Shown here in pieces: positions 3,901 to 60,432 of a stretch of DNA of 64,000 bases (positions within the stretch are counted from its first letter, which is position 1; each line of letters starts with the position of its first letter). The stretch comes from Pseudoalteromonas marina (GTDB lineage: Bacteria; Pseudomonadota; Gammaproteobacteria; Enterobacterales; Alteromonadaceae): positions 186,001 through 250,000 of the forward strand of contig NZ_AHCB03000006.1 of NCBI RefSeq assembly GCF_000238335.3, read 5' to 3'. The translations under genes and the position numbers were made by a program. The notes under the pieces are model-generated. The model made no database searches and was not told the origin of the DNA. It saw only the letters and a program-made list of their open reading frames with translations.

Positions 3901-6865
3901 CTGGCTCCTCTAAAAGCTCAGGCTCTTCTGCAAGCTCTGGCTCCTCTACAAGCTCTGGCTCCTCTTCAAGCTCGGGCTCTTCTTCAAGCTCTGGCTCCTC
4001 TTCAAGCTCAGGCTCTTCTTCAAGCTCTGGCTCTTCTGCAAGCTCTGGCTCTTCTTTAAGCTCGGGCTCCTCTACAAGCTCTGGCTCATCTTCAGACTCA
4101 TTCTCCGATTCAGATTCAGATTCAGATTCAGATTCATCAATCAAAGCTGAAGCTAAAGATTCGACATCATCAACATTTAACTCTTCTTGTGCATCAGCTA
4201 AATCATCGACAGAACCGGCCAAAGCAGTATCAATGTCATCGTTTTCTTCGACTAACGACTCTGTTAGCGTTTCATTAGCTGAATCGTCATCTGCTTCATC
4301 AATTAAGCTGTCGATGTCATCCAAATCAAAGTCATCGCTTTCTTCAACTAACGACTCTGTTTGCGCTTCACTTACGGAATCTTCATCTGCTTCATCAATT
4401 AAGCTGTCGATATCGTCCAAATCAAAGTCATCGCTTTCTTCAACTAACGACTCTGTTTGCGCTTCACTTACGGAATCTTCATCTGCTTCATCAATTAAGC
4501 TGTCGATATCGTCCAAATCAAAGTCATCGCTTTCTTCAACTAACGACTCTGTTTGCGCTTCACTTACGGAATCTTCATCTGCTTCATCAATTAAGCTGTC
4601 GATATTGTCCAAATCAAAGTCATCGCTTTCCTCGACTAACTCATCAGTTTGCGTTTCATTAGCTGAATTTTCATCTGCTTCATCAATTAAGCTGTCGATA
4701 TCGTCCAAATCAAAGTCATCGCTTTCTTCAACTAACTCATCAGTTTGCGCTTCATTTACGGAATCTTCATTTGCTTCATCAATTAAGCTGTCGATATCGT
4801 CCAAATCAAAGTCATCGCTTTCTTCAACTAACGACTCTGTTTGCGCTTCACTTACGGAATCTCCATCTGCTTCATCAATTAAGCTGTCGATATCGTCCAA
4901 ATCAAAGTCATCGCTTTCTTCAACTAACGACTCTGTTTGCGCTTCACTTACGGAATCTTCATCTGCTTCATCAATTAAGCTGTCGATATCGTCCAAATCA
5001 AAGTCATCGCTTTCTTCAACTAACTCATCAGTTTGCGCTTCATTTACGGAATCTTCATTTGCTTCATCGATTAAACTGTCGATATCGTCCAAATCAAAGT
5101 CATCACTTTCTTCAACTAACTCATCAGTTTGCGCTTCATTTACGGAATCTTCATTTGCTTCATCAATTAAGCTGTCGATATCGTCCAAATCAAAGTCATC
5201 ACTTTTTTCAACTAACGACTCTGTTTGCGTTTCATTAGCTGAATCATCATTTGCTTCATCAATTAAGCTGTCGATATCGTCCAAATCAAAGTCATCACTT
5301 TCTTCAACTAACGTATCCGTTGGCGTTTCATTAGCTGAATCATCATTTGCTTCATCAATTAAGCTGTCGATATCGTCTAAGTCAAAATCGTCACTTTCTT
5401 CAGAAGTTTTATCAGACGTGTCTACTGGTTCGGCACTCGTTTGATCAAGTAAATCATCTATATCAAAATCATCGGTCGCAAGCTCTTCGCTCAATGCTGC
5501 CATTTCATCGTTAGATTCTAAACTATCACTTTGTGGCTCTTTTTCTGCTGGTGAATCAAACTCAGGTAAGCTGTCATCTTCGTCAAATAGGCTATCTAAG
5601 TCATCATTACTTAAAATATCATCAGTGCCAGACGGTTCTTGGTCTAAATCTAAATCAATATCGTCCAAGCTATCATCAGCACTGTCGTCAAATCCTTGTT
5701 GCGTGAAAATATCGACTTCATCGTCTTCGTCACTTTCATCATCAAAAACAATATCGTCGCTAAGAAGGCCTTCTAACTCGTCTTGATCAAGTAAGTTATC
5801 TGAATCATCAAGTTCGTCTGAGTCATCTTCTAATAAATCATCATCTGGAAGCATGTCACCTTCGAGGTGATCATCTAATTGAACGCTCAAGTCATCCAAT
5901 GGATCTGGAATGATTGGGTCATCAAGTGGATCAGTTGCTAAGTCATCCTCATTAGAATAAGTTGGAGTTTGCGGTAAAAATTCATCATCTGCTTGAGACT
6001 CTTCTTGATTGCCTTTTCTTTTACGAAGAAACATAACAATTGCAAAGATAATCAATAATCCGGGAATGAACATTAACAGCCCAAGCACAATAGGGTTTGA
6101 CAACAAGGCTAGTAAGTCAAAACTGCTTTGAGGTTCAACCTCTTTAGCTTTTTGCTGGGCAATTATTTCATTTTGTTTAAGTATTAATTCCTTTAGCTGC
6201 AGCTGTATTTCACTATCTTGCCCTAATTGTTGGCGAACATTTTCGAGCTCTTTAGAAATTCCAGTCAGCTGTTTTTTAAGGTTATTATTCTCAACTAAAA
6301 TCTCTTCAACATTTGTTACTGAACTTTTAAACTGTTGCTGTAACTCAACTAATTTATTAGTTTGGTCGGTTTTGATTTCTTTTATTTCTTTTTGTAACTC
6401 TTTTTTGGCGTCGTCTACATCAACTTTACGCGCTTGTGTAACTTGTGTTTGAGCTGATGTTATTTCAGTTTGTGTAAGTGTTCCGTTTTTTTTCTTTTCC
6501 CATAACTCGTCATCTTGCTCAGAACGCTGCCTAGCTAGTTGAGTATTCACACGTCTAATTTCAGATAAAGTGGGTATTTTTAAATAGGCCCCACTTCGCA
6601 TATGATTGAGGTTTTGATCTAAAAATGAGTCGGGGTTTTTGTTATACAAGGCCTGCATAACTTGATAAATACTTACAGAGTTATCTGGACGCACTTTTAC
6701 GGCTATGCGCCAAAGTGTATCGGTGGGTTTAATCGGACCAATAGACCGCCCTTGAGCACCATAGTCAACGCCTTTAGGCCCCTTTAATTGGGTACTATCT
6801 TGTGTATATACAGGCGTTACTACCAGTGCAGACGCTAATATTATAAGTATAGCCAAACCGCGCAT
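926..6865 (-). CDS. fimV: FimV/HubP-type polar peptidoglycan-binding protein, giant repeat-rich form
   Basis: This 1979-residue protein has the FimV/HubP plan. There is a signal peptide (about 1-21), a periplasmic LysM domain (about 40-100), a coiled-coil segment (about 125-245) and one membrane helix (about 258-282). A very long acidic cytoplasmic region follows, ending in a TPR-like FimV tail (last 50 residues, SALKVIEDVIAKGPEE). Family members mark the cell pole and help assemble type IV pili or place chemotaxis and chromosome-partition proteins. It is far longer than the roughly 900-residue Pseudomonas FimV because the acidic region holds a 32-residue tandem repeat (about 12 copies), a hexapeptide EPELEE-like array and several smaller repeats. 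Its position between truA and asd is typical. The exact role here is inferred from the family. Confidence 0.93.
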   Translation of the reverse strand: MRGLAILIILASALVVTPVYTQDSTQLKGPKGVDYGAQGRSIGPIKPTDTLWRIAVKVRPDNSVSIYQVMQALYNKNPDSFLDQNLNHMRSGAYLKIPTLSEIRRVNTQLARQRSEQDDELWEKKKNGTLTQTEITSAQTQVTQARKVDVDDAKKELQKEIKEIKTDQTNKLVELQQQFKSSVTNVEEILVENNNLKKQLTGISKELENVRQQLGQDSEIQLQLKELILKQNEIIAQQKAKEVEPQSSFDLLALLSNPIVLGLLMFIPGLLIIFAIVMFLRKRKGNQEESQADDEFLPQTPTYSNEDDLATDPLDDPIIPDPLDDLSVQLDDHLEGDMLPDDDLLEDDSDELDDSDNLLDQDELEGLLSDDIVFDDESDEDDEVDIFTQQGFDDSADDSLDDIDLDLDQEPSGTDDILSNDDLDSLFDEDDSLPEFDSPAEKEPQSDSLESNDEMAALSEELATDDFDIDDLLDQTSAEPVDTSDKTSEESDDFDLDDIDSLIDEANDDSANETPTDTLVEESDDFDLDDIDSLIDEANDDSANETQTESLVEKSDDFDLDDIDSLIDEANEDSVNEAQTDELVEESDDFDLDDIDSLIDEANEDSVNEAQTDELVEESDDFDLDDIDSLIDEADEDSVSEAQTESLVEESDDFDLDDIDSLIDEADGDSVSEAQTESLVEESDDFDLDDIDSLIDEANEDSVNEAQTDELVEESDDFDLDDIDSLIDEADENSANETQTDELVEESDDFDLDNIDSLIDEADEDSVSEAQTESLVEESDDFDLDDIDSLIDEADEDSVSEAQTESLVEESDDFDLDDIDSLIDEADEDSVSEAQTESLVEESDDFDLDDIDSLIDEADDDSANETLTESLVEENDDIDTALAGSVDDLADAQEELNVDDVESLASALIDESESESESESENESEDEPELVEEPELKEEPELAEEPELEEEPELEEEPELEEEPELEEEPELVEEPELAEEPELLEEPELEDEPELEEEPALEEEPALEEELEPNEVLEDFGADDFTDTSDTLLDPEDLLDEYNDDALQSVDELLNELQQPEDSEYVESPDWTLDDLDDEIEEVEVDLGDDPLAEDTDSDLSLEDELLETESITPSEELDDYPELEIAEDQGAETQEATNNEGENVVSQTEKDLADSTSKGADLSNFDEELDDEPHATADFDEAPIIDDNELLAVGDAEEFATKEEHNELDDDGEFAEEVSDFSDNDIDVLADEELDSELSPSQTEQELSQALSSSIDLNSLEDDFDDEPLIDSEFEQSDSGLDTNSESEEPLPEITDEALLSQEDFDDSQVDLAGLDADLEFDSVNAEDFEELVSETPDGDSDNDEELDGLNLDEVVSDTTIDETLDAGLEPELSPSQTEQELSQALSSNIDLDSLEDDFDDEPLIDSDFDESSLEPEINEEANVLVPEDTDEDSLLGADLEFDSVGVEGVEEQVLETPPNDIERTDTKEFEQDLDDGGSAIAQEVDIEHEPELSPSQTEQELSQALSSNFDLDSLEDDFDNEPLLDNEFDESELVLEANDEIEVSASEASDEKQFLEENLEYSQNDLAETGVDLELDPLPVEIDEVPVSDDDADSTDLPNSVEFESSDLGIEQTVDDELDELDELDELDELDELDSELEINDEVEGSIAQVSDDAVSSEEVEELLPNRPNNGADFSGSGEDNSEITSDDTLASELDNNEADNQNSAEDDIDSAGTNFNDDLLIDEFNELDGELDNLNDLNDDTLDDLLTESNNADADYLAPDSSVGLDNPAFISESDDEINEQTNVDREAELTQVNSQGDTNLVSDEALDDEFMADLSETDFDSLLNELAAPDELAIEDSSEFDVDFDSLLKEDLVDEEVFNHKEPVPEDAKPLGEDDFVDIDSLLEQSDDAELEHEPYNDVNIDLGLSEFDALLAGDNPTDVDAESGGYSAKLDLARAYIEIDDFDSALKVIEDVIAKGPEEVQEEALSLQAKLQQ
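3826..4090 (-). repeat. 18-bp coding tandem repeat (EPELEE hexapeptide array) in fimV
   Basis: About 15 consecutive 18-bp units encode EPELxE-type hexapeptides, next to a short SESESESE run (about 4095-4135). A separate 9-bp repeat encoding DEL lies near 1959-2010. A longer block starting LSPSQTEQELSQALSS occurs three times, near 2360, 2720 and 3130. All are in frame. Confidence 0.9.
4250..5401 (-). repeat. 96-bp coding tandem repeat in fimV, about 12 copies
   Basis: Twelve consecutive 32-residue units each contain DDFDLDDIDSLIDEA followed by a more variable half (for example NEDSVNEAQTDELV or DEDSVSEAQTESLV). Sequence between copies is very similar at the DNA level, so copy number may change by slippage or recombination. 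Confidence 0.95.
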
Positions 6866-7214: not shown

Positions 7215-8231
7215 TTACATATAATTTTCTATTAACTCTTCAGCTATTTGAACACTATTGGTTGCAGCACCCTTGCGGGTATTATCACTAACAACCCACA
7301 TATTTAAGCCATGAGGGTGTGAAATATCAGCGCGCAAACGGCCAACATATACAGTATCGTTGCCACTGGCATCGGAAACCGCTGTTGGATAATCACCTTC
7401 ATCGTCAATTAGCTCAACGCCTGGTGCATCATTTAACAGCTGTTTAACGTGTTCGAAGTCGTATTGCATACGTGTTTCAATATTAATAGATTCAGAATGA
7501 CCAAAAAACACAGGAACACGCACACACGTTGGGTTTATTGCGATTGTTGTATCACCTAATATTTTGTGCGTTTCGTTTACCATTTTCATTTCTTCGCGGG
7601 TATAGCCGTTATCTTCAAAGCAATCTATTTGCGGAATAACATTAAAGGCTATTTGCTTAGGAAATATTTCATTATCCATTGGGCGTGCATTCATCAAGTT
7701 AGCTGTTTGCTTTGCTAACTCATCAACAGCTTCTTTCCCAGCCCCTGATACCGCTTGGTAAGTTGATACATTTATTCGATCAATACCATACGCATCGTAA
7801 ATTGGCTTTAATGCCAACATCATTTGAATAGTCGAACAATTTGGGTTTGCAATAATATTACGATTTCTAAAGTCGGCAAGACTTGAGGCATTCACTTCTG
7901 GAACAACAAGGGGGATTTCAAAATCATTTCTAAAATGCGAGGTATTATCAATAACTATACAACCTGCATCGGCTGCAATTGGGGCATATTTTTCTGAGAC
8001 GCTCCCACCGGCAGAAAACAATCCAATATGCGCTTGGCTAAAATCAAAGCCTTCAACGTCTTGTACTTCAATTGTCTCACCACGAAACTTAATGTCTTCA
8101 CCTGCACTGCGGCTGCTCGCAAGCAAAAATAGCTGATCAACCGGAAATTTACGATCTGCTAAAGTTTCGATAATTTGACGTCCTACTAAACCAGTAGCAC
8201 CAAGTACGGCAACGTTATATTTTTGCGACAT
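7215..8231 (-). CDS. asd: Aspartate-semialdehyde dehydrogenase
   Basis: It reduces aspartyl phosphate to aspartate semialdehyde with NADPH, the branch point to lysine/diaminopimelate, threonine and methionine. The 338-residue protein has the N-terminal dinucleotide motif GATGLVG (11-17). The active-site cysteine sits in NPNCSTIQM (Cys132), and the substrate-binding stretch YQAVSGAGKEA follows. The length and the NPNCSTIQ form match the shorter ASADH class (asd2/usg-like), not the 367-residue E. coli Asd. Because both classes occur in related genomes, this may be one of two paralogues. The ATG at 8231 is preceded by a purine-rich ribosome site. It lies 45 bp after pdxB on the same strand and probably shares its transcript. 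Confidence 0.93.
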   Translation of the reverse strand: MSQKYNVAVLGATGLVGRQIIETLADRKFPVDQLFLLASSRSAGEDIKFRGETIEVQDVEGFDFSQAHIGLFSAGGSVSEKYAPIAADAGCIVIDNTSHFRNDFEIPLVVPEVNASSLADFRNRNIIANPNCSTIQMMLALKPIYDAYGIDRINVSTYQAVSGAGKEAVDELAKQTANLMNARPMDNEIFPKQIAFNVIPQIDCFEDNGYTREEMKMVNETHKILGDTTIAINPTCVRVPVFFGHSESINIETRMQYDFEHVKQLLNDAPGVELIDDEGDYPTAVSDASGNDTVYVGRLRADISHPHGLNMWVVSDNTRKGAATNSVQIAEELIENYM

Positions 8232-51448: not shown

Positions 51449-52162
51449 TTAGTCCATTATATCCGACGGCATATCGCCACGAATTTTCTGCCAAATTTCA
51501 CCGGTTTGATGACCATATTTACGCATCATCGAAATTGCACCGTCGTGTTCATTATTTTGCGCTAATACAGTTAAATCTTTATAAAACTGGCGGGCAAGCT
51601 CGCGGGTACCCGGATCTGAAAAGTAATGACAACCGATTTTAGAATAGAACCCTCTAAAACCGTTTAAAATTAAAACATAAATTCGGTTATTACCTGCAAC
51701 GGCCAATTCATGATGCACTTTATAGTCATAATCAGCAAATGCTTGTGCCGTATCTTCAAGTTCGTGACTTAATGATAAAATTTCAATAACACGCTCAGGG
51801 TTAAGCTTAATTGCAGCACGGGTATAAATAGCACTTATATTTGTTCGTGCAGACAATAGCTGATCTGTCAGCTCAGGCATTTTATCTTCATCTAAACGTG
51901 CTAACGTTTCTAATATATTTAAGCCCGACGTTTCCCAAAAGTTATTAACCTTTGTTGGTTTGCCGTGCTGAATAGTTAGCCAGCCGTCTCGCGCTAAACG
52001 CTGTAACACTTCGCGTAATGTGGTTCTTGTTACGCCAATTAACTCAGAGAGCTCTCTCTCAGCTGGTAGAATTGAACCTGGAGGGAAATCGCCATTCCAA
52101 ATAGACTCAACTATGTATTCTTCAGCAAATCCTGCTGGGCTTTTCGCTTTAAAAATTCTCAT
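51449..52162 (-). CDS. fadR: Fatty-acid metabolism regulator FadR
   Basis: FadR is a GntR-family regulator that represses beta-oxidation genes and activates unsaturated fatty acid synthesis; acyl-CoA releases it. The 237-residue protein is close to E. coli FadR (239): [48 protein letters not shown] and [21 protein letters not shown]. In E. coli fadR neighbours nhaB and dsbB. Here an integron replaces that neighbourhood before dsbB. Confidence 0.96.
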
Positions 52163-52522
52163 CCAATTCCCACTCGAATTAATCTACAACGTTTCGCTTA
52201 CGCGAATAACTGACTGATTGTACCAGACGAAACTCAACTAACAAGTAAAGTAAGATATATTGTTAAATTGAACATACACATCAAGGTAAAGTTACTGAAC
52301 GGCAAGAGCGACTGGCCATTTAAAAGGAACAAAAATCGCTTTTAATAAAACAAATTCATTGAAAATATCAAATTACGATCAGGTTAAACATGGAAGAAAT
52401 GTGCAAACAACGAGAATTAATTTAGTGGCTGAACTAACAGCCAATTGTAGACATTGAAGATTTTTAATGTCTGAAGTCAAGATTTGACTCCATTCACTTT
52501 TTATATGCAAAATACTCCGCAA
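52163..52522. other. Distal end of integron / fadR upstream region
   Basis: This 360-bp region contains the fadR promoter and the end of the last cassette. No canonical attC was found after the 52523-52846 gene. GAGCGACTGG near 52307-52316 repeats the first ten bases of the 34-bp unit beside intI, possibly by chance. Otherwise nothing is recognised. Confidence 0.45.
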
Positions 52523-52846
52523 CTAGTTGAAAAATGGTGTGAACCATGATGCAACGTAAAAAATTAAAAGAAAACTATAAGCTAACAAAAAGCCTTTGAA
52601 ACACTCTTTTAGATCTGCGGCTTCATGACCATGTTTTGCCTTTTTAAAGCCTAAATAACTAGGCACTGGGTAAGTAAGCATTACCGCTACAATAATCCAA
52701 TTTGCTACAACTTTATCTGAATCGGGGGCATCGAAAATAAAAACTGACATGAACAACGAAACTGGCCACGCTACTATCGCGATAGCAGGTAAAAACGCCA
52801 AAGCTAATAATGGAATTGATAATGGATGGCTGTGAGTTTGCTGCAT
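52523..52846 (-). CDS. Integron cassette 11: small membrane protein
   Basis: This 107-residue protein starts MQQTHSHPLSIP at ATG 52846; the longer frame to 52882 is rejected because it enters attC. Three membrane helices are likely (about 9-30, 43-62, 82-102). No known family. It is the cassette most distant from attI, and it lacks a recognisable attC of its own, so it may be fixed in the chromosome or its attC may have decayed. Confidence 0.6.
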   Translation of the reverse strand: MQQTHSHPLSIPLLALAFLPAIAIVAWPVSLFMSVFIFDAPDSDKVVANWIIVAVMLTYPVPSYLGFKKAKHGHEAADLKECFKGFLLAYSFLLIFYVASWFTPFFN

Positions 52847-52861
52847 AATTTCCTTTGCATA

Positions 52862-52953
52862 TAACGCCCTAATAATGGGCAAAAAATTGTTGGCTAAAAT
52901 GTTGAGGAACGAAAACAGCCAACTGTTTTTTGTCCTTATTAATTAGCGTTAGC
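52862..52953 (-). repeat. attC site of cassette 10
   Basis: On the + strand it runs from TAACGCCC to GCGTTAGC (92 bp), with internal complementary GTTGGCTAAAATG and CAGCCAACTG. The stop codon of the 52949-53146 gene lies in the outer box. Confidence 0.85.
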
Positions 52954-53146
52954 TTACATTTGTATATTGGGGCATACCAACTAAGTCAATGTCTATATTC
53001 TTAGTCATTGCGCCATGTGTCCATCTTAACTCTAATTGTCGAACAGCATCAGCAAACCTATTAGCACTTTCAAAGTCTGAATAGGTCGTTATTTTCATGT
53101 CTGGAAATAACCTAGGAAGTTGCTCATTTGGAGTATCATACGGCAC
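52949..53146 (-). CDS. Integron cassette 10, second ORF: small hypothetical protein
   Basis: This 65-residue reading frame uses a GTG start at 53146 or an internal ATG (MKITTYSDFESANRFADAVRQ). No signal peptide, no known family. The stop lies in attC, as usual for cassette genes. It shares one cassette with the 53189-53521 gene, with no attC between them. The open frame continues upstream without an ATG. Confidence 0.45.
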   Translation of the reverse strand: MPYDTPNEQLPRLFPDMKITTYSDFESANRFADAVRQLELRWTHGAMTKNIDIDLVGMPQYTNVS

Positions 53147-53188
53147 CTCATGAGTTGCTGTCGTTTTATGGGGCTTAGCATGAGCTAA

Positions 53189-53521
53189 CTAATTTCGGAA
53201 TTTAATCATTTCTTGTATTGTCTGCCAAGGCTGAGCAGAAAAATCAGCGTCTATACCTAGCTCTTTAGAAACCAATATGATTTTTCCAATGATCGATGTA
53301 GATTCAAAGTTTTTCCATTGGTTTTTAAACAACTGAGAACCATATACATTTGCCATAGCCTCTACAGAGAAAACTGAAAAGATCATCGATGGTATTATCC
53401 ATCTAAATTTATGACCAGCTTGCTCTTCCTCTGCCATTCTTAATTGGTTTGCAGCTATGGAATGAAGAGGAATTATCTCTGGGCATTCAACTGTAACTTT
53501 TACTTTTTTGGTACGACTCAA
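53189..53521 (-). CDS. Integron cassette 10, first ORF: hypothetical protein
   Basis: The open frame runs to 53665, but its first 45 or so codons translate the neighbouring attC. The likely start is TTG at 53521, preceded by GGAGAG six bases upstream, giving 110 residues starting SRTKKVKVTVECPE. A hydrophobic stretch (WIIPSMIFSVFSVEAMA) may be one membrane helix. No known family. Confidence 0.5.
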   Translation of the reverse strand: MSRTKKVKVTVECPEIIPLHSIAANQLRMAEEEQAGHKFRWIIPSMIFSVFSVEAMANVYGSQLFKNQWKNFESTSIIGKIILVSKELGIDADFSAQPWQTIQEMIKFRN

Positions 53522-53539
53522 TCTGAACTCTCCATGTAA

Positions 53540-53642
53540 GCTAACGCCGCAAATAAACGGCAAAAAATAGCTGGCTATAATTTGAGAGGCACGAACAAAG
53601 CCAACTGTTTTTTGTCCGTACTTTTTAATTTGCTTTGTTAGG
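53540..53642 (-). repeat. attC site of cassette 9
   Basis: + strand GCTAACGCC ... GCTTTGTTAGG, about 103 bp, with GCTGGCTATAA and AAGCCAACTG as inner boxes. It contains the stop codon of the cassette 9 gene. Confidence 0.88.
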
Positions 53643-54062
53643 TGCGTAAGAATCCAAATACTCACCTACTCGACCACCAAATAGCGAAGGTGATGTATTA
53701 TGTATTTTACGTTTAGCATATGAGCAAGACTCTTTAACTCTGATGCTGCTCTCAGATTGCCATAATGCCGCGTCTGTATTTTTTACTATTTCTTCTAATG
53801 GCTGCTTGCTGATGATAACTGCTTTATCGATGAGCTGTTTGTTACTTAAGTACCACTCATTTATTTCTTCTTGGGTTGCGCTATCACAGTATTTTTTTAA
53901 AGATAATATGTAGCTAAAAACCTGACGAGCTCTAAATGCAGCATCTTCATATGAACAAACACCATCTCGTCTTTGCTTGCCCTCTGGGACTGGTTCACAA
54001 GGTTCCACAGCAGAGACTCTAAATGAAAAAAGCAGAAGCAAAGTTAGTAATACGATCTTCAT
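53625..54062 (-). CDS. Integron cassette 9: exported hypothetical protein
   Basis: This 145-residue protein (ATG 54062) has a clean signal peptide (MKIVLLTLLLLFSFRVSA). The mature part has four Cys (VEPCEPVPEG, DGVCSYED, KKYCDSA, KESCSYAKRK), suggesting disulfides. No family recognised. The protein end (APNKAN) is encoded by the attC outer box, so attC supplies its C terminus. Confidence 0.62.
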   Translation of the reverse strand: MKIVLLTLLLLFSFRVSAVEPCEPVPEGKQRRDGVCSYEDAAFRARQVFSYILSLKKYCDSATQEEINEWYLSNKQLIDKAVIISKQPLEEIVKNTDAALWQSESSIRVKESCSYAKRKIHNTSPSLFGGRVGEYLDSYAPNKAN

Positions 54063-54068
54063 TGGCAC

Positions 54069-54163
54069 CTAACGCCCGCTTAAGCGGAAAAATATTGTTG
54101 GCTACAATGTTGAACGGAGTGAAAACAGCCAACTGTATTTTTTCCGTTTGAAGTACTTGTTAT
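54069..54163 (-). repeat. attC site of cassette 8
   Basis: + strand CTAACGCCCG ... CTTGTTAT, about 95 bp, with GTTGGCTACAATG and CAGCCAACTG inner boxes. Confidence 0.88.
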
Positions 54164-54354
54164 ATGGTTTTATTAGGGCGTATCCGCTTAAAAAACATTG
54201 TATACGTGACTGTAAACCAATCATAATTTACACTAACTAATTCCCAGCCTTGTTTTCCTAGTTCTGTGCAGCGAGTTTGTAACCTAACAAATTTGGTGGA
54301 GCGAAATGTAAGAAGACCACCAACTTTTTCTACTTTATACTCAAATATATCCAT
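54160..54354 (-). CDS. Integron cassette 8: DUF4177-like protein
   Basis: This 64-residue cytoplasmic protein has the DUF4177 pattern: FEYKVEKV at the start, then LGKQGWELVSVNY and a FFKR end. DUF4177 proteins are tiny beta-rich domains of unknown function, common in integron cassettes and elsewhere. Stop codon inside attC. Confidence 0.7.
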   Translation of the reverse strand: MDIFEYKVEKVGGLLTFRSTKFVRLQTRCTELGKQGWELVSVNYDWFTVTYTMFFKRIRPNKTI

Positions 54355-54375
54355 ATACTTCTATCCTGTGATCCA

Positions 54376-54469
54376 TATAACGCCTGGTTAAGAGGCTAGT
54401 TTAGCTTGCTAAAATGTTTGCCGAAGGCTCGAGCAAGCTATTACGAGACCTTCTTAAACCACTTGTTAA
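54376..54469 (-). repeat. attC site of cassette 7
   Basis: + strand ATATAACGCC ... CTTGTTAAG, about 94 bp. Inner sequence (TAGCTTGCTAAAATG / GAGCAAGCTA) differs from the others, giving a more distant member. Confidence 0.82.
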
Positions 54470-54486
54470 GTATTTACTTGAACAAG

Positions 54487-54918
54487 TTACCTTTTTTGAT
54501 AACGGACCTCAAATTTACCCTTGTCTGCCTTTATATAAACAGAATTAGTTAATGACACTGATTTATAATTATCTAAGTCTTGAGCTAGCATCTCTGAGTT
54601 GTCGTATTTAACAAGTGTATTTGGAAGACAACTTTTTAAGTTAATGTGCACTTTAGTTAAAGCAGCAGAAGGTAATCCCGTGTGCTCTATATGGAGATAT
54701 GAATTAACATTACTTCCAGAAATATTCATATCAAACCTTACAAGCTCAACCCTATTAATTTGAGGGATTTCTAGTTCTTTTAAGTTTACTGGACATTCGG
54801 CTAAAACTGGAATTCTTAATGTTCCATAAGCCTCATCGATTGCTTCATTTTTTGAAGCATCTCCGCATGAAATAAGGAGCATTATAGTGGTAATGATTAG
54901 ACTAGATTTAAGATACAT
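54487..54918 (-). CDS. Integron cassette 7: lipoprotein
   Basis: This 143-residue protein has lipobox LISC (Cys about 18) after MYLKSSLIITTIMLL. The mature part contains two more Cys (AECPVNL, LKSCLPN) and alternating strands, suggesting a small beta domain. No family recognised. Confidence 0.6.
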   Translation of the reverse strand: MYLKSSLIITTIMLLISCGDASKNEAIDEAYGTLRIPVLAECPVNLKELEIPQINRVELVRFDMNISGSNVNSYLHIEHTGLPSAALTKVHINLKSCLPNTLVKYDNSEMLAQDLDNYKSVSLTNSVYIKADKGKFEVRYQKR

Positions 54919-54938
54919 GCCGATCCTTGAACTAAATA

Positions 54939-55032
54939 CCTAACGCCCAAATAACAGGCTAAAAATAGTGGGCTAAAATGGAGCGAAGCGAACAGCCCGC
55001 TGTTTTTAGTCCTTGTTGATTTGCTTGTTAGG
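54939..55032 (-). repeat. attC site of cassette 6
   Basis: + strand CCTAACGCCCAAA ... TTGCTTGTTAGGG, about 94 bp, with GTGGGCTAAAATG and CAGCCCGCTG inner boxes. The cassette 6 protein ends within it. Confidence 0.88.
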
Positions 55033-55434
55033 GCTTAATGCTCGAATAGATTTTAAGAACTCTTTACTAAAATCGAGGTTAGCCCAAATTAATTGAGTAC
55101 CACCACAATAACCCGTTATCCAATTAGAGTCGTCTGTAAAAGCAACATACTCTTTCCCCAATGAAAAAGACATTCCGTGACATGCATTAACGTCCATTGC
55201 GGAATATATGACTTTTGTGTAATTGCCCTTAAGCATACTTTTATTGTCTAAAGTGATTTTTTGATAAGGTCTATTCTCTTTATCAAATAAAATCTCCAAC
55301 TTCATAATACGCCCATTTAGCACATTACTAGCGTTACTGAAATGCACAGAAGGTGGTTGTTCTGCACAACTGCAAGCAAGGGTGTTAGCACTAAACAGTA
55401 TAAAAGAAATAAAAAACGCTAAACGATACACCAA
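55006..55434 (-). CDS. Integron cassette 6: secreted NTR/TIMP-like protein
   Basis: This 142-residue protein has a signal peptide ending LACSC, then a small domain with conserved Cys (CSCAEQPP; AMDVNACHGMSF; WITGYCGGTQ). A mature N terminus starting with Cys-Ser-Cys and the strand-rich middle resemble the netrin/TIMP-like fold found in some bacterial exported proteins. This is a fold-level guess, not proof. The last 10 or so residues (SPNKQINKD) come from attC. Confidence 0.55.
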   Translation of the reverse strand: MVYRLAFFISFILFSANTLACSCAEQPPSVHFSNASNVLNGRIMKLEILFDKENRPYQKITLDNKSMLKGNYTKVIYSAMDVNACHGMSFSLGKEYVAFTDDSNWITGYCGGTQLIWANLDFSKEFLKSIRALSPNKQINKD

Positions 55435-55448
55435 ATTCTCCCTTGAGC

Positions 55449-55546
55449 CCTAACGCCCAAATAAGGGGCTGATTAACTGTTGGCTAAAATGTGAAGCGAA
55501 GCGAAACCGAGCCAACTGTTAGCAGTCCCGCTTAATTTTCTTGTTA
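55449..55546 (-). repeat. attC site of cassette 5
   Basis: + strand CCTAACGCCC ... TTCTTGTTAT, about 98 bp, with TGTTGGCTAAAATG and GAGCCAACTG inner boxes. Confidence 0.88.
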
Positions 55547-56119
55547 TACACCGCTTTCACAATGTTTTGCAATGAAAGCCTCAATCATTGCATCAAACGA
55601 TTTATATGCTGGATTGTGTGGATGAGTACGACCTATGAATACATTTTTATCGCTATTGTATATAGACAATGACTCTTTATATTTTATACAACCATTTACA
55701 TAACCATTATCTGTAACGTAGGCATTGCCCATAGAAAATAAAGCTTTTGAAACACCCCAATAATCTCCATCCTCTTCAAATGCTTTAGCGGCTAACTCAA
55801 AGTGTTTAATTGATTTAGATGCCGTAGGATCATATTCATTGTGTTTTATATAAAAGTCTTTGTGTTCGCGGTAGCTTCTATTTTTATAAAACAACCCTAA
55901 GAAAGTATGAGCTTCAGCCACACCATAAATATTTTTTGATTTTTCAAGATCAGCGAGCGCCTCTAATCCAAGCTTTTCAGCCGCTAAACCTCGCCCATGC
56001 GTTCCCATTAGTTGATATGCGTAATTTAGTTTAGTCATAGGATCGCTTGTATATGGAACTCCTGCCGCAGCACAGCCGAGTAAAAACAAAGTGATTAGTG
56101 AAATAATGATCAGCTTCAT
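55544..56119 (-). CDS. Integron cassette 5: TPR-like lipoprotein
   Basis: This 191-residue protein has lipobox LLGC (Cys16) after MKLIIISLITLF. The mature part is helical with TPR-like repeats (YGVAEAHTFLGLFYKNR; HFELAAKAFEEDGDYWGVSKALFSMGNAYV). Sel1/TPR-type lipoproteins bind other envelope proteins; no specific role can be assigned. Confidence 0.65.
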   Translation of the reverse strand: MKLIIISLITLFLLGCAAAGVPYTSDPMTKLNYAYQLMGTHGRGLAAEKLGLEALADLEKSKNIYGVAEAHTFLGLFYKNRSYREHKDFYIKHNEYDPTASKSIKHFELAAKAFEEDGDYWGVSKALFSMGNAYVTDNGYVNGCIKYKESLSIYNSDKNVFIGRTHPHNPAYKSFDAMIEAFIAKHCESGV

Positions 56120-56138
56120 GCCAAACTTTCCTTAGGTG

Positions 56139-56243
56139 TATAACTTCTAAATAAGGGGCGCAGGCATGTGGGGCATAATGGCGAAGCCGTCCCGCATGTA
56201 TGCGTCCCAGCGAACGTAGTGAGTGACTTAATTTTTTTGTTAG
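56139..56243 (-). repeat. attC site of cassette 4 (divergent)
   Basis: + strand TATAACTTC ... TTTTTTTGTTAGC, about 105 bp. Outer boxes fit, but the interior (GCATGTGGGGCATAATG / CATGTATGCGTCC) is unlike the other attC sites. Confidence 0.72.
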
Positions 56244-56255
56244 CTCGCTTTCTGA

Positions 56256-56660
56256 TTAATCCCACCATAGTAGCAACTTATTGTTTATGACATCACTTTC
56301 TGGATTAAAGACCATGCCTTGGTTAGTAGCTTCTTTATTTGCAATATTCAATATTGCTTCCCTTTCGTTTTGCGTAGTAGGTAAAGATATTTCCAAAGCG
56401 TCTGCGTAAGGTCCACCTTCTTGTTGGATTCGGTTGTTACTGTCATAGATTGCACTCTTGGGAATAGTCACTTTAACTGCTCCAATGCTATACAGGTTTT
56501 CTACAAACCTAATAGCGTCTTGCGTACTAGCAAATCTATTTCCTGCAAGAGCGTGCTTGTTGTTATTTGATATAAGCCATTCCCGAGCCTCGGGTGACTT
56601 TGGATAGATGAAATAAGCTATCGCTACCAGAACGAACACGAGTAAAAAAATCTTCAACAC
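56256..56660 (-). CDS. Integron cassette 4: membrane-anchored hypothetical protein
   Basis: The open frame to 56744 would translate attC. A GTG start at 56660 preceded by AAAGGA gives 134 residues starting LKIFLLVFVLVAIAYFIYP, one N-terminal membrane helix. The remaining domain is probably periplasmic (EAREWLISNNNKHALAGNRFA). No known family. Confidence 0.55.
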   Translation of the reverse strand: MLKIFLLVFVLVAIAYFIYPKSPEAREWLISNNNKHALAGNRFASTQDAIRFVENLYSIGAVKVTIPKSAIYDSNNRIQQEGGPYADALEISLPTTQNEREAILNIANKEATNQGMVFNPESDVINNKLLLWWD

Positions 56661-56678
56661 TTGAACAATCCTTTGAGA

Positions 56679-56777
56679 GCTAACGCCACAATAAGCGGCC
56701 AGATAATGGTTGGTTATAATTGTTGAGGAACGAAACACAACCAACCGTTAGAGGTCCGCTCTTAATTGCCTTGTTAT
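56679..56777 (-). repeat. attC site of cassette 3
   Basis: + strand GCTAACGCC ... GCCTTGTTAT, about 99 bp, with GGTTGGTTATAATTG and ACAACCAACCG inner boxes. Confidence 0.86.
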
Positions 56778-57310
56778 CTAGCTAATTTAATAGTTTCGAA
56801 AGCTTTTACTGCTTGCTCCAAATAAAGCTCATTAAACTCAACCAAATCTTGAGTGTGCAAGCTAACTATTTTTGAATTAAATATATAACAGTACATTACA
56901 CCGTGTGCTTTTTTTAAGCCTAAATCACCACTCCAATCGACTTTAGCCACAGGTACGTCAGATATTGTTATAAATTCGACGTCGCCTTGTTTAAAGTTAT
57001 TTCTTTTTCGAGCAACACCAGATAAAAATTGAGCGAGGTACTGAGCTGCACCTTCTTTAAGTTCATCATCACTCATTTCAGGAAAAGGCTTACCAGGATT
57101 CCAAATTGTTATTTGCAACAAGGTCGCATCGTTTCCATCTCCATGTAAATGTCGAAAAGCTATTGCTGAAGTTCCTGGTCCCATACTTTGTTCAAATGGA
57201 CCTTCAAAACCAGCTGGGATTTTAATAGAGGCATCGGCAAAAGAATACTCATCTGCACCGGTGGAAATGGAAATAAAAAACAACGCGAGAGAAATAAGAA
57301 TCCGATTCAC
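56774..57310 (-). CDS. Integron cassette 3: exported DcrB-like protein
   Basis: GTG start at 57310, preceded by AAGGAG, gives 178 residues with signal peptide (NRILISLALFFISISTGA). The longer ATG frame runs through attC. The mature part resembles small periplasmic stress proteins such as the DcrB/PsbP-like fold (ASIKIPAGFEGPFEQSMGPG; EQAVKAFETIKL). The match is weak. Confidence 0.5.
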   Translation of the reverse strand: MNRILISLALFFISISTGADEYSFADASIKIPAGFEGPFEQSMGPGTSAIAFRHLHGDGNDATLLQITIWNPGKPFPEMSDDELKEGAAQYLAQFLSGVARKRNNFKQGDVEFITISDVPVAKVDWSGDLGLKKAHGVMYCYIFNSKIVSLHTQDLVEFNELYLEQAVKAFETIKLAR

Positions 57311-57325
57311 GTAACACTCCTTGCT

Positions 57326-57421
57326 AGATAACGCCCAATTAACAGGCAAAAAATAGTTGGTTAAAATAAGCGACGAAGGAGCAAAACCAACTGTTTTTGT
57401 CCTTGTTTAATTGTTTGTTAG
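57326..57421 (-). repeat. attC site of cassette 2
   Basis: + strand AGATAACGCCC ... TTGTTTGTTAG, about 96 bp, with GTTGGTTAAAATAAG and AAACCAACTG inner boxes. Confidence 0.87.
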
Positions 57422-57795
57422 GTAACATTTACCACGTTAGCCTTACTTTTCGACTGCCATAACCAAATAGAAGAACCAATACAGAAACCTAGAAATAATG
57501 TTTGAAGTTGTAAAGCAGAACTATCCGAAAGAACGTTTAATAAATAAAAAGCAACAGAATTAATTGCTACGTCGCTAAGCATTATAACCAGTGTTAACAC
57601 CAAACCAGCGTTACGCCATTTAATTAACAAGTAAACAGCCACAATATCTATAACAGCCAACGCTGTCCAATAAATATTAACCCATTCAGGAGCAAATTTA
57701 TAAGGCAAGAATCCATAATATAAATTATCAAATATGTGAGTTGCACCACCTATAAATAGGCAGAAACACAAAACGAAAATTACTACTCTATCCAT
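57418..57795 (-). CDS. Integron cassette 2: four-helix membrane protein
   Basis: ATG start at 57795 (MDRVVIFVLCFCLFIGG) gives 125 residues with about four membrane helices (5-25, 43-63, 67-88, 100-118). Charge and layout suggest a small inner-membrane protein with both ends in the cytoplasm. No known family. The stop codon lies in attC. Confidence 0.58.
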   Translation of the reverse strand: MDRVVIFVLCFCLFIGGATHIFDNLYYGFLPYKFAPEWVNIYWTALAVIDIVAVYLLIKWRNAGLVLTLVIMLSDVAINSVAFYLLNVLSDSSALQLQTLFLGFCIGSSIWLWQSKSKANVVNVT

Positions 57796-57818
57796 GAGTC
57801 TATACACCTGATTTGTTA

Positions 57819-57917
57819 CCTAACGCCCGCATAACGGGCTAATAAAGCTTGGCTACAATTGGTGAGGCACGAACCAAGCCAAGCTTTATTAGTCCATGCG
57901 TTAATGCGTTTGTTATT
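57819..57917 (-). repeat. attC site of cassette 1
   Basis: + strand CCTAACGCCCG ... GCGTTTGTTAT, about 99 bp, with an unusually long stem: TAATAAAGCTTGGCT pairs with AGCCAAGCTTTATTA. Confidence 0.9.
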
Positions 57918-57920
57918 AAA

Positions 57921-58475
57921 TTAAATACCAGCAACTTCTTTAATAAAACGGCTTACTACTTTTTGAAGCTCTTTTTGAGCTCCCCACTGGTTATCGTAAG
58001 CTTCAAAAACATTAAATTTGTCGTGCTCAAAAGCATACTCAATATTTTTTTCTGCTTGTTGATATTTTTCAATAGCAGAAATTAATTCGGCGTTTAGAAG
58101 GGGCTTGTATACATTTAATGAGTCGGAAATTGTCTTTTGGAATTGTTGATTTATTTCAGCTGAACCCTCAGTACACGTTTCATCTGGAATATTGTTCATG
58201 CGATTAAATTCTCTATCGGATAATTTAGATGAAACTTCGATTGCGTCAGCTAACGATTTAGATAGCTGTATTAGACTTTCTTTATTTATTTCCCAAACTC
58301 GATCTTTCCTTTGCTTTCTAACCGAGTCGAAGTGAATAGCAGTAGCTGTAATTGTTGCAGCTGCAATTATCAGATTAAGAGTAAATGTATGGTCAAAATC
58401 AAATTTTAAATCGAAGACTAGATACCAGACTGTTAGACAAAAACCTGTTAGAAGCCCGAGAATATATTTAATCAT
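57921..58475 (-). CDS. Integron cassette 1: membrane-anchored coiled-coil protein
   Basis: This 184-residue protein starts at ATG 58475 (MIKYILGLLTGFCLTVWYLVF) with two N-terminal membrane helices (about 5-22, 31-49) and a helical, coiled-coil-prone cytoplasmic part (NKESLIQLSKSLADAIEVSSKL). No known family. It is nearest to attI, so it was the last one inserted. It is preceded by about 20 bp of cassette sequence after the attI core. Confidence 0.6.
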   Translation of the reverse strand: MIKYILGLLTGFCLTVWYLVFDLKFDFDHTFTLNLIIAAATITATAIHFDSVRKQRKDRVWEINKESLIQLSKSLADAIEVSSKLSDREFNRMNNIPDETCTEGSAEINQQFQKTISDSLNVYKPLLNAELISAIEKYQQAEKNIEYAFEHDKFNVFEAYDNQWGAQKELQKVVSRFIKEVAGI

Positions 58476-58622
58476 TTACACCTATCTTGATTGATTTACA
58501 TAACATGTTTATAGCGAGCTAATCGCGCGTATTTCTACCATAGCGTAGCTCGTTTTCTTATTGGTTTATTTTTAACAAACTTGCCAACTAATTGCCAGTG
58601 TTATTAAAATTCATACATGCGC
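58476..58622 (-). other. Integron attI region
   Basis: A core site ACATAAC (58498-58504; GTTATGT on the - strand, matching GTTRRRY) marks the boundary between attI and cassette 1. To its right lie short repeats GAGCTA/TAGCTC (58517-58551) expected for integrase binding. The Pc promoter that reads cassettes should be here or further right, but I could not fix it. Confidence 0.65.
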
Positions 58623-58730
58623 GTTTTCTTCTCAGTATAAAACGAGCGACTGGGTCGTTTTATACTGAGAAGAAAACGAGCGACTGGGTCGTTTTATACT
58701 GAGAAGAAAACGAGCGACTGGGTCGTTTTC
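58623..58730. repeat. 34-bp tandem repeats and 23-bp-arm palindrome beside intI
   Basis: Two full 34-bp units (58644-58677, 58678-58711) and a third partial one (from 58712) start GAGCGACTGGGTCG. The segment 58623-58645 is the exact reverse complement of 58655-58677, leaving the 9-base loop GCGACTGGG. A fourth GAGCGACTG lies at 58741. The repeat lies between attI and the intI promoter. Confidence 0.92.
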
Positions 58731-58757
58731 TTGACTATGCGAGCGACTGAGCTATAA

Positions 58758-58773
58758 CTGTATATACATACAG
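58758..58773 (+). promoter_or_regulatory. LexA (SOS) box upstream of intI
   Basis: CTGTATATACATACAG matches the gammaproteobacterial LexA consensus CTGT-N8-ACAG, 21 bp before the intI ATG. SOS control of intI through a LexA box is established for Vibrio and mobile integrons. Confidence 0.85.
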
Positions 58774-58794
58774 TCCCAATTCGATGGATTGAAA

Positions 58795-59673
58795 ATGAAA
58801 ACTCGTTCTGCGTATTTAAATTACATTGCGGACTATATGCTCACTCGACAGTATTCACTAAGAACTATTAATGCTTATTTGAGTTGGATCACAAAATTTA
58901 TTCACTTTCACAACAAACGCCACCCAAGCTCAATGGGAAATTCAGAAGTCGAAGCGTTTTTGGACCATATTGTATTAAAACGTAACATGTCAGCTAAAAC
59001 ACAAAGTGCAGCTTTAAATGCGCTAGCTTTTTTATATAAACATATTGTCAAAAATGAACTTTCGTTAAACTTGAACTTTGTACGAAGTAAACGACAACCC
59101 AAATTACCTGTTGTGATGGAAGCTGTGTAACTGCGAGTAAAAGACGTTGATTTTGATTATAAATGTATTCAAATTTGGAACGGGAAAGGCAATAAGCATC
59201 GTATCGTTACCCTTGCAACTGAGTTACTCCCGTTACTTAGAAATCAAATAATGCAAGTTGAAGAATATTTGCAATTAGATTTACAAAACGAACAATATGC
59301 AGGCGTATGGATGCCAAACGCTTTAGCCCGTAAATATCCGTCAGCTAACAAATCACTCGCGTGGCAATACTGATTTCCTTCCTATAAATTAAGTAGTGAT
59401 CCTGAAACTGGCGAGATACGGCGTCATCACTTCCATCCTACATGTGTTAGGAAAGCGGTTAAAAAGGCATTAAAGCAAACCAATATTACAAAGATTGTGA
59501 CGCCTCATACCTTTCGTCATTCTTTTGCAACACACTTATTACAAAGTGGAGCAGATATAAGAACGGTGCAAGCTCAGTTAGGTCATACAGATGTTAAAAC
59601 CACGCAGATTTACACTCATGTTTTACAGCAAGGGGCAAACGGTGTTGTTAGCCCATTAAGCAAAATTTTCTAG
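58795..59673 (+). pseudogene. intI: Integron integrase IntI, inactivated
   Basis: Tyrosine recombinase of the IntI family, recognisable by its N-terminal SAM-like domain, the IntI-specific patch (VWMPNALARKYPSANKSLAWQY), RRHHFHP, and C-terminal boxes [12 protein letters not shown] and [15 protein letters not shown], with the catalytic Tyr. One frame spans 58795-59673 but has stop codons at 59128-59130 (TAA) and 59371-59373 (TGA). At the first stop about 30 residues are missing between LPVV and MEAV, including the GLR box with the first catalytic Arg. The full length of about 292 codons compares with roughly 320 in Vibrio. No recombinase activity is expected. Confidence 0.95.
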
Positions 59674-59913
59674 CGTAAAACCCGCCATGAGGCAAACAAA
59701 TGGACAAAACACATATTTTCCAGTAGCAAGAATGTAAATCCATCAAAACCACAATATGCATAAAAACATATCACAAAGTATTTCAATATAGCCTTTTAAA
59801 GTGCAGGGACATTTTTTGCAGGGTAACAATAAAACTTTTTATATACCTCTTTTTGTTGCCGCGTACTTTTTCGTGCGTCATAATCTAACGCCTTATTTAT
59901 TAGCGGACTTTTT

Positions 59914-60432
59914 ATGAACTGGCTTGCGCATTTACCGACTCAACGAACACCTTGGCTTTTATTCACTGCGATTGTTTTTATGCTAGAAGTAACCGCATTG
60001 TTTTTTCAATATAAAATGGGGTTAGCGCCCTGCATTATGTGTATTTATCAACGTACCGCGGTGTTAGGATTACTTGGCGCGGGTATTGTTGGGTCAATTA
60101 ATCCACAAAGTAAAATAGTGCGTATAGTTGCTTACATTGCTTGGGGAGTATCGAGCATTTGGGGGTATTTAATTGCCCGTGAGCACATAGATATGCAAAC
60201 GACAACAGATCCGTTTGCGTTTAGCTGCGAGTTTGAGCCTAACTTTCCATCGTTTATGCCGCTGCATGAATGGATACCGAGCTTTTTTGAAGCCACTGGC
60301 GATTGCGGTAACATAGATTGGGAGTTTTTATCGCTCAGTATGCCGGCTTGGATGGAAATTATTTTTGGGCTATTCGCTCTAACATTTTTTATTGTATTAG
60401 GTAGTCGCTTAATACTAAAAAGAACGGTTTAA
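59914..60432 (+). CDS. dsbB: Disulfide bond formation protein DsbB
   Basis: DsbB reoxidises DsbA and passes electrons to quinone. The 172-residue inner-membrane protein has four helices. The CIMC pair (Cys40, Cys43) lies in the first periplasmic loop, with YQR next to it, and the second pair is Cys105 and Cys131. All four match the E. coli positions 41, 44, 104, 130. It follows the dead integrase gene. In E. coli the order is fadR-nhaB-dsbB, so the integron lies at this site. Confidence 0.95.
   Translation: MNWLAHLPTQRTPWLLFTAIVFMLEVTALFFQYKMGLAPCIMCIYQRTAVLGLLGAGIVGSINPQSKIVRIVAYIAWGVSSIWGYLIAREHIDMQTTTDPFAFSCEFEPNFPSFMPLHEWIPSFFEATGDCGNIDWEFLSLSMPAWMEIIFGLFALTFFIVLGSRLILKRTV

Follow-up and report, generated by a model that had tools for sequence, protein, structure and literature searches.

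A chromosomal integron with an inactivated integrase between fadR and dsbB of Pseudoalteromonas marina, probably one part of a dispersed integron network

A chromosomal integron lies between fadR (51449-52162, - strand) and dsbB (59914-60432, + strand) in a 64-kb stretch of the 4.19-Mb Pseudoalteromonas marina genome (contig NZ_AHCB03000006.1, positions 186,001 to 250,000; here called the window and numbered from its first letter). The interval holds ten cassettes with ten attC sites (- strand), a tail open reading frame (ORF), an attI region, and a divergent integrase gene, intI, and the full integron layout proposed in a first-pass annotation of the sequence is thereby confirmed. That annotation also counted eleven cassettes. 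Its ten attC sites stand, but they delimit only ten cassettes, and the ORF at 52523-52849, which has no attC, is therefore a tail and not an eleventh cassette.

The ten attC-like sites span 52859-57918 and measure 96–108 bp each. RNAalifold folds them into a long imperfect hairpin of 29 pairs, 19 of them with at least one compensatory sequence. A covariance model built from these ten sites (R1) is circular when applied to them, so a second model (R2) was built from 12 attC of two other arrays of the same genome, with no window sites. In the covariance-model search that the first-pass annotation had proposed as a check, this independent model recovers nine of the ten sites on the correct strand with E ≤ 1.3e-19 and the tenth (56138-56245) with E = 0.012; the five remaining window rows of this search (E ≤ 5) represent four or five of these sites read on the opposite strand. 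Rfam at gathering thresholds lists only a tRNA in the window and is neutral on attC. What is found is a cassette array in one orientation, each cassette ending in an attC hairpin, with homogeneous attC of one family at a chromosomal location. Its features, with the cassettes as c1 to c10, are as follows.

58789..59673, + strand: intI remnant, C-type (TIGR02249 in two pieces; alignment to the intact sister ortholog; ORFs)
58504..58788, - strand: attI region and intI promoter region (crossover between 58504 and 58503; limit of identity with other platforms)
58758..58773, no strand: LexA-box-like palindrome CTGTATATACATACAG (sequence)
58639..58729, no strand: 34-bp tandem repeat, 2.7 copies, within the attI region (Tandem Repeats Finder)
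57818..57918, - strand: attC of c1, ORF 57921-58475 (R2 E = 2.9e-21)
57326..57423, - strand: attC of c2, ORF 57418-57807 (R2 E = 3.3e-28)
56678..56779, - strand: attC of c3, ORF within 56774-57349 (R2 E = 4.3e-23)
56138..56245, - strand: divergent attC of c4, ORF within 56256-56744 (R2 E = 0.012; R1 49 bits, circular)
55448..55549, - strand: attC of c5, ORF 55544-56119 (R2 E = 1.1e-21)
54938..55033, - strand: attC of c6, ORF 55006-55434 (R2 E = 1.4e-25)
54375..54471, - strand: attC of c7, ORF 54487-54918 (R2 E = 1.3e-19)
54067..54165, - strand: attC of c8, ORF 54160-54354 (R2 E = 9.8e-24)
53539..53643, - strand: attC of c9, ORF 53625-54068, a cassette also present in the C11 array (R2 E = 9.5e-23)
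52859..52954, - strand: attC of c10, ORFs 53189-53530 and 52949-53146 (R2 E = 1.2e-23)
52523..52849, - strand: tail ORF without attC (ORFs; absent from the sister-species stretch at the locus by BLAST)
52468..52488, - strand: REP-like (repetitive extragenic palindrome-like) motif GTCAAATCTTGACTTCAGACA at the distal end (pattern searches)
52391..59848, no strand: stretch without counterpart in integron-free relatives (BLAST of 20 stretches, 18 genomes)

The intI gene encodes an integron integrase, scoring 286 and 114 bits against TIGR02249 in two pieces and 393.5 together (cut-off 265). The proposal that it is inactivated holds up against its ortholog in the sister species G064, the nearest relative (FadR 100%, DsbB 95%), whose IntI at this locus is intact, with 325 aa. 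The window copy, within a 495-kb contig, has lost 93 bp in frame between GTGATG repeats (59113-59118) and carries premature stops at 59128-59130 and 59371-59373; the deletion removes a stretch holding what we take to be the first catalytic arginine. Changes in intI were polarized with two outgroups (G056 and G081), sites at which the outgroups disagree being dropped. This assigns 14 synonymous and 7 nonsynonymous changes to the window lineage and 10 and 4, respectively, to the G064 lineage; random change (transitions weighted 2:1) would make a fraction of 0.247 synonymous, and the window lineage deviates from this with p = 6e-5. The excess of synonymous change indicates that intI was under purifying selection for most of its branch, and, judged by these substitutions, the integrase was lost recently on the scale of that branch, after the split from the sister species.

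The positions of fadR and dsbB were tabulated for 34 of 108 genomes of the genus, with both genes on one contig in 32; the gap between them is below 800 bp in 24, about 2 kb in seven, and 7.75 kb here. The locus was read in 20 stretches from 18 further genomes (G068 is split on two contigs, and the 20 kb of G040 ends before dsbB). There is no attC at fadR–dsbB in 17 of these 18 (R1, E ≤ 0.1), only the two G064 stretches matching. By BLAST, the integron-free relatives show direct homology across the gap, and their homology to the window resumes at about 52383/52390 and at 59849. In G017, the 2-kb gap is filled by a gene for a 526-aa transporter (L052 1571-3151), presumably NhaB-like. The term “sedentary,” used in the first-pass annotation, does not stand in that form after this comparison: besides the 17 genomes without attC, close copies of the platform occupy different genomic positions in distantly related species and are present on a plasmid, as described below, and the locus is not a stable, vertically inherited one.

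The G064 array is broken in the assembly, one contig carrying dsbB, intI, attI, and the proximal cassettes and another fadR and the distal cassettes. Window and G064 are 91–93% identical in the flanks, where dsbB differs at 35 of 519 bp and fadR at 36 of 714 bp, and 93–95% identical in the attI/intI pieces. The attI regions agree at 95% as far as AAACATG^TTA, beyond which lie unrelated first cassettes. Identity with four other platforms (L072, G056, G081, and the plasmid) stops at the same crossover, again followed by different first cassettes, the behavior that marks an integron attI. When the window array was searched against the whole G064 genome (40 of 57 candidates scored, E ≤ 1e-10), pieces of c9 were found on three contigs; the other matches are at most 117 bp, the size of an attC or of the REP-like motif. 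As further observations on this pair, the sister species has fewer copies of the 34-bp repeat between intI and attI, and its array contains transposase genes that we take to be IS110/IS1111-like (L042 5741-7003; L043 3858-4973 and 5917-7071), one of which starts beside an attC. The palindrome CTGTATATACATACAG, a candidate LexA box, has counterparts in the sister species and upstream of the intI of array A, another array of this genome.

The G064 IntI has matches in 93 of the 108 genomes, and its identities were set against those of DsbB in a table of 89 genomes, leaving out this genome and three with no listed identity. In 12 genomes, IntI is 85–92% identical yet DsbB only 54–72%; in 19 others, DsbB is 78–88% identical yet IntI only 50–77%. 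It is these inverted extremes, and not an absence of correlation, that argue for horizontal spread. Around the integrases elsewhere, neither fadR nor dsbB is found in 20 loci (19 C-type query matches) at E ≤ 1e-10, whereas the positive controls match. Among the best 80 of 570 matches, IntI relatives of 75–80% identity come from Colwellia, Alteromonas, Catenovulum, Aliiglaciecola, Planctobacterium, and Thalassotalea. A copy of 90% identity is carried by a 244-kb Pseudoalteromonas donghaensis plasmid, typed as mobilizable with a MOBH relaxase, where it lies near traF, traH, and mobI and about 2.4 kb from attI, with permease, ArsR-type, and IS1595-family transposase genes in between. Phage records give integrase matches below 60% only, no plasmid record covers more than about 4% of the window array, and no mobile element carrying the integron is recognized at the window locus.

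The plasmid platform is 98% identical to the G056 and G081 platforms, and the alignments end at the same place behind intI. Nine distinct C-type flanks with the 14-mer TGCCCCAAAAYAAG (36 pairs) are 93% identical in the last 60 bp of intI and average 32% (maximum 50%) in the 60 bp outside. The 96% identity of the 14-mer itself is not independent evidence, because the flanks were collected with it as the pattern. Diverged forms occur in G030, G044, and G045, and it is absent in G010, G065, G064, and the window. In many C-type copies, the border TGCCCCAAAAYAAG^YTAG resembles the attI core AAACATG^TTAG. A-type platforms from three genomes, at 91–92%, lose homology at the intI stop; the A-type platform of G063 (96%) shares its flank with this genome and thus occupies the same locus. 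Two other candidate features were set aside. An attC directly behind intI seems plausible by eye in G081 and G078, but R1 finds none at E ≤ 5 in 17 loci, and terminal direct repeats are no general signature, with a 44-bp repeat in G081 and none in five other cases. In G081 (L088), this near-perfect direct repeat flanks the C-type integron at ~5541-5585 and ~8141-8185. A more speculative proposal, which we regard as doubtful, is that platforms (intI plus attI) move as discrete units, from the attI crossover to a fixed border beside the intI stop, with the integrase gene travelling like a cassette. Their own IntI, we infer, would possibly catalyze this by acting on both of these sites and so make the border. 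If true, such mobility would account for the ten platforms of this genome, for the presence of an integron at some loci and its absence at others, and for jumps between chromosome and plasmid.

The window is one of many integron loci in this genome. A genome search with R1, in which 150 of 3353 candidates were scored, gives 65 rows at E ≤ 0.1, representing 64 distinct sites in about 16 clusters, and at least 61 attC at E ≤ 1e-3; given the fraction scored, the count is a lower bound, and another search finds further sites. Ten arrays carry an attI region at ≥74% identity, in three lineages. The window attI region matches those of L072 (94%), L074 (91–96%), and L064 and L073 (75–76%); that of array A matches L070 (82%) and L062 (74%); and that of array B matches L071 (76%). 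Weaker matches are found at L065, L067, L068, L082, and L083. Array A has the sole open IntI frame of the genome, and its product (IntI-A) aligns over residues 8-326 of 326 to 2a3v with E = 7.2e-119. The array B integrase has three stops, L072 keeps residues 1-74, L074 keeps residues 1-25, and tblastn with two IntI queries finds none at E ≤ 0.01 in L062, L064, L070, L071, and L073. An IntI match at E ≤ 1e-30 is present in 90 of the 108 genomes of the genus, and R1 matches are present in all 108 (38 candidates scored per genome). Sedentary chromosomal integron arrays hold tens of cassettes or more; the window array has ten, set against at least 61 attC genome-wide. Nor is it a cluster of attC sites lacking an integron integrase (CALIN), since the intI pseudogene adjoins it, but other arrays of the genome do fit that description.

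No cassette or tail ORF scores above the Pfam cut-off (c8 reaches 18.8 against DUF4177; cut-off 25) or, among those scanned, which were all but c3 and c4, above the NCBIfam cut-off (c8 reaches 24.7 bits against NF053529; cut-off 50). Defense or toxin–antitoxin content was considered and rejected, PADLOC giving no match among 10 proteins (the tail ORF and the c3-c10 ORFs). A large protein collection holds 14 relatives of c9 and 51 of c1 at E ≤ 0.001, and the named ones are hypothetical or uncharacterized, save one entry called a sulfate-permease-like transporter. Relatives of c2, c4, c6, c7, c9, and c10 occur elsewhere in the genus at 75–99% identity (2 candidates scored per genome). Within this genome, c9 has a second copy in the C11 array with 2 differences in 528 bp, the homology stopping at both cassette ends, and a third, 87% identical, in L071. 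The two G064 contigs both break off within c9, share an N at one position, and are otherwise identical over 418 bp, so that the assembly may have collapsed them. Two differences separate both of these contigs from both near-identical copies of this genome, and a third such difference is covered by only one contig; the window and C11 copies are thus closest to each other. In a separate observation, the c6 attC (54938-55033) is identical at 87 of 91 bp to sequence on two Vibrio plasmids, at the attC in the region of their blaVMB-1 cassette, a hint that a Pseudoalteromonas-type integron may once have carried this cassette. The integrase next to blaVMB-1 on a Vibrio plasmid was rejected as a relative, being at most 48% identical to the fetched integrases.

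We consider it likely that the window contains a genuine chromosomal integron of a horizontally spreading C-type lineage, now part of a dispersed integron network with one intact integrase. A C-type platform would have entered the fadR–dsbB interval before the split from the nearest relative, which has this platform at the same place with its integrase intact. After that split, the cassettes beside attI were exchanged at the crossover, and the integrase of the window was lost later through the 93-bp deletion between direct repeats and the nonsense changes. The locus would now be an orphan attI with ten attC. Because insertion at attI usually needs the cognate IntI, cassette insertion at the window attI should have stopped. 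The window attC belong to one family with the attC of the other arrays; IntI-A could still excise or copy them, and the cassettes would form a pool common to about ten platforms, with c9 a trace of it. Cassettes turned over here until recently, and the first-pass description of the array as frozen needs to be narrowed accordingly: the comparison of relatives, which that annotation itself set as the refuting test, shows turnover at the species level, and this and the intact IntI in the genome speak against it in its general form. What is left is a narrower claim, that the array would have been static from the recent time at which its own integrase was lost, unless an integrase acts on it in trans.

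Several points weigh against this interpretation. IntI-A shares only 58% identity with the C-type IntI, and its action on the window attC is a prediction. The sharing of c9 may reflect gene conversion. IntI and DsbB identities show a weak positive correlation (rho 0.23, p 0.03; 0.20, p 0.06 without G064), as do IntI and FadR identities (0.27; 0.24 without G064), so that some vertical signal remains. Finally, the G064 array is split between contigs, only its two ends being compared directly and 40 of 57 candidates scored genome-wide, and the comparison involves one genome per species.

How do other accounts fare? A vertically inherited sedentary integron, decayed and now frozen, would agree with the chromosomal position, the single attC family, the inactive integrase, and the weak IntI–DsbB correlation across the 89 genomes. 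But vertical inheritance is contradicted by the 17 further genomes without attC at the locus, and the close relatives of the platform on a plasmid and in distantly related species, the different cassettes of the sister species, and the intact IntI elsewhere in the genome all tell against this account, which we judge unlikely. A stronger contender is that IntI-A already serves the window array in trans, with cassettes being excised and moved today. IntI-A is intact, all arrays share the attC family, and c9 occurs in two arrays with only the 2 differences in 528 bp; however, BLAST shows no similarity between the attI of array A and that of the window, and c9 could have moved while the C-type integrase was alive; the attI of the C11 array is C-type. 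We regard such service as quite possible, although we do not favor it.

It would also be conceivable that the intI lesions are artifacts of sequencing or assembly in an active integron, and the branch changes do look selected. Yet three distinct lesions, including the loss of 93 bp between direct repeats, within a 495-kb contig, in a genus in which decayed IntI copies are common, make this very improbable. Improbable, too, is the idea that the attC clusters do not come from platforms but arose when individual cassettes inserted at random places in the chromosome (attG events). Some loci do hold a single attC, but ten arrays adjoin an attI region, and three besides array A retain parts of intI. 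Insertion of this kind is not favored for the ten attI-bearing arrays and would apply at most to the single-attC loci.

The REP-like motif GTCAAATCTTGACTTCAGACA merits a separate description. This 21-bp element has 20 copies in the genome (≤2 mismatches; 0 for the reversed control), and 11 of the 20 have an attC within 2 kb, where 0.49 would be expected (p = 3e-13, a value that is too small, as the copies are clustered). It stands beyond the last attC, on the cassette strand, at arrays A and B, the window, and C4:1132k. Its copies include those at G000 C4:1131137, 1275764, 1276460, 1465154, and 1465202 and at C11:375206-380190. Between copies at L080 lies a gene (1981-2955) that is presumably akin to REP-associated transposases.

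In general, the locus touches on two open questions, how chromosomal integrons spread and why many genomes have attC clusters without an integrase, and it offers a datable case, with a live integrase in the sister species, integron-free relatives, and a copy on a plasmid. The case also suggests that an array next to an inactivated integrase is not necessarily frozen, since a second integrase in the same genome may act on it. The kind of integron is known; its organization is unusual. The first-pass annotation treated decayed integrons as a known class, rightly so: the accessible parts of earlier papers describe pseudo-integrase integrons, multi-IntI genomes, CALINs, and lateral transfer (PMC2426708, PMC9024848, PMC9229058). 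In the open-access literature, with subscription papers mostly outside its scope and sources seen in part, no report was found of this locus, of ten attI-bearing arrays in one genome, or of a fixed platform border. According to the part of Nemergut et al. 2008 (PMC2426708) available to us, about one-third of intI genes are pseudogenes and more than 20% of lineages have more than one intI, with duplication and transfer as sources. The pseudo-integrons of that paper resemble the present case in having an inactive intI beside an array; as far as the part seen goes, they differ in that here a live sister counterpart, an integron-free locus in relatives, and about ten attI-bearing arrays in one genome occur together. 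CALINs, as excerpts of the IntegronFinder 2.0 paper put it (PMC9024848), are attC clusters without an integrase, proposed to be degraded integrons, and 22% of IntI-bearing genomes have more than one IntI; in contrast to CALINs as presented there, many arrays of the present genome retain an attI region by which they can be placed in a platform lineage. Laterally transferred chromosomal integrases of Shewanella, Vibrio, and Pseudoalteromonas, of types that several species share and that are also found on a large Pseudoalteromonas replicon, have been described (PMC9229058, in part), but those are other integrase types, and this locus, the sharp border, and the plasmid copy are not among the content seen. 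For P. tunicata, four IntI4-type recombinases are reported in the portion consulted of PMC2536512. The chromosomal integron of Vibrio cholerae offers a final comparison, as IntI-A aligns over residues 8-326 to the integrase structure 2a3v, whose entry name is IntI4. The V. cholerae integron is one very large array, whereas the P. marina genome has several small, dispersed ones.

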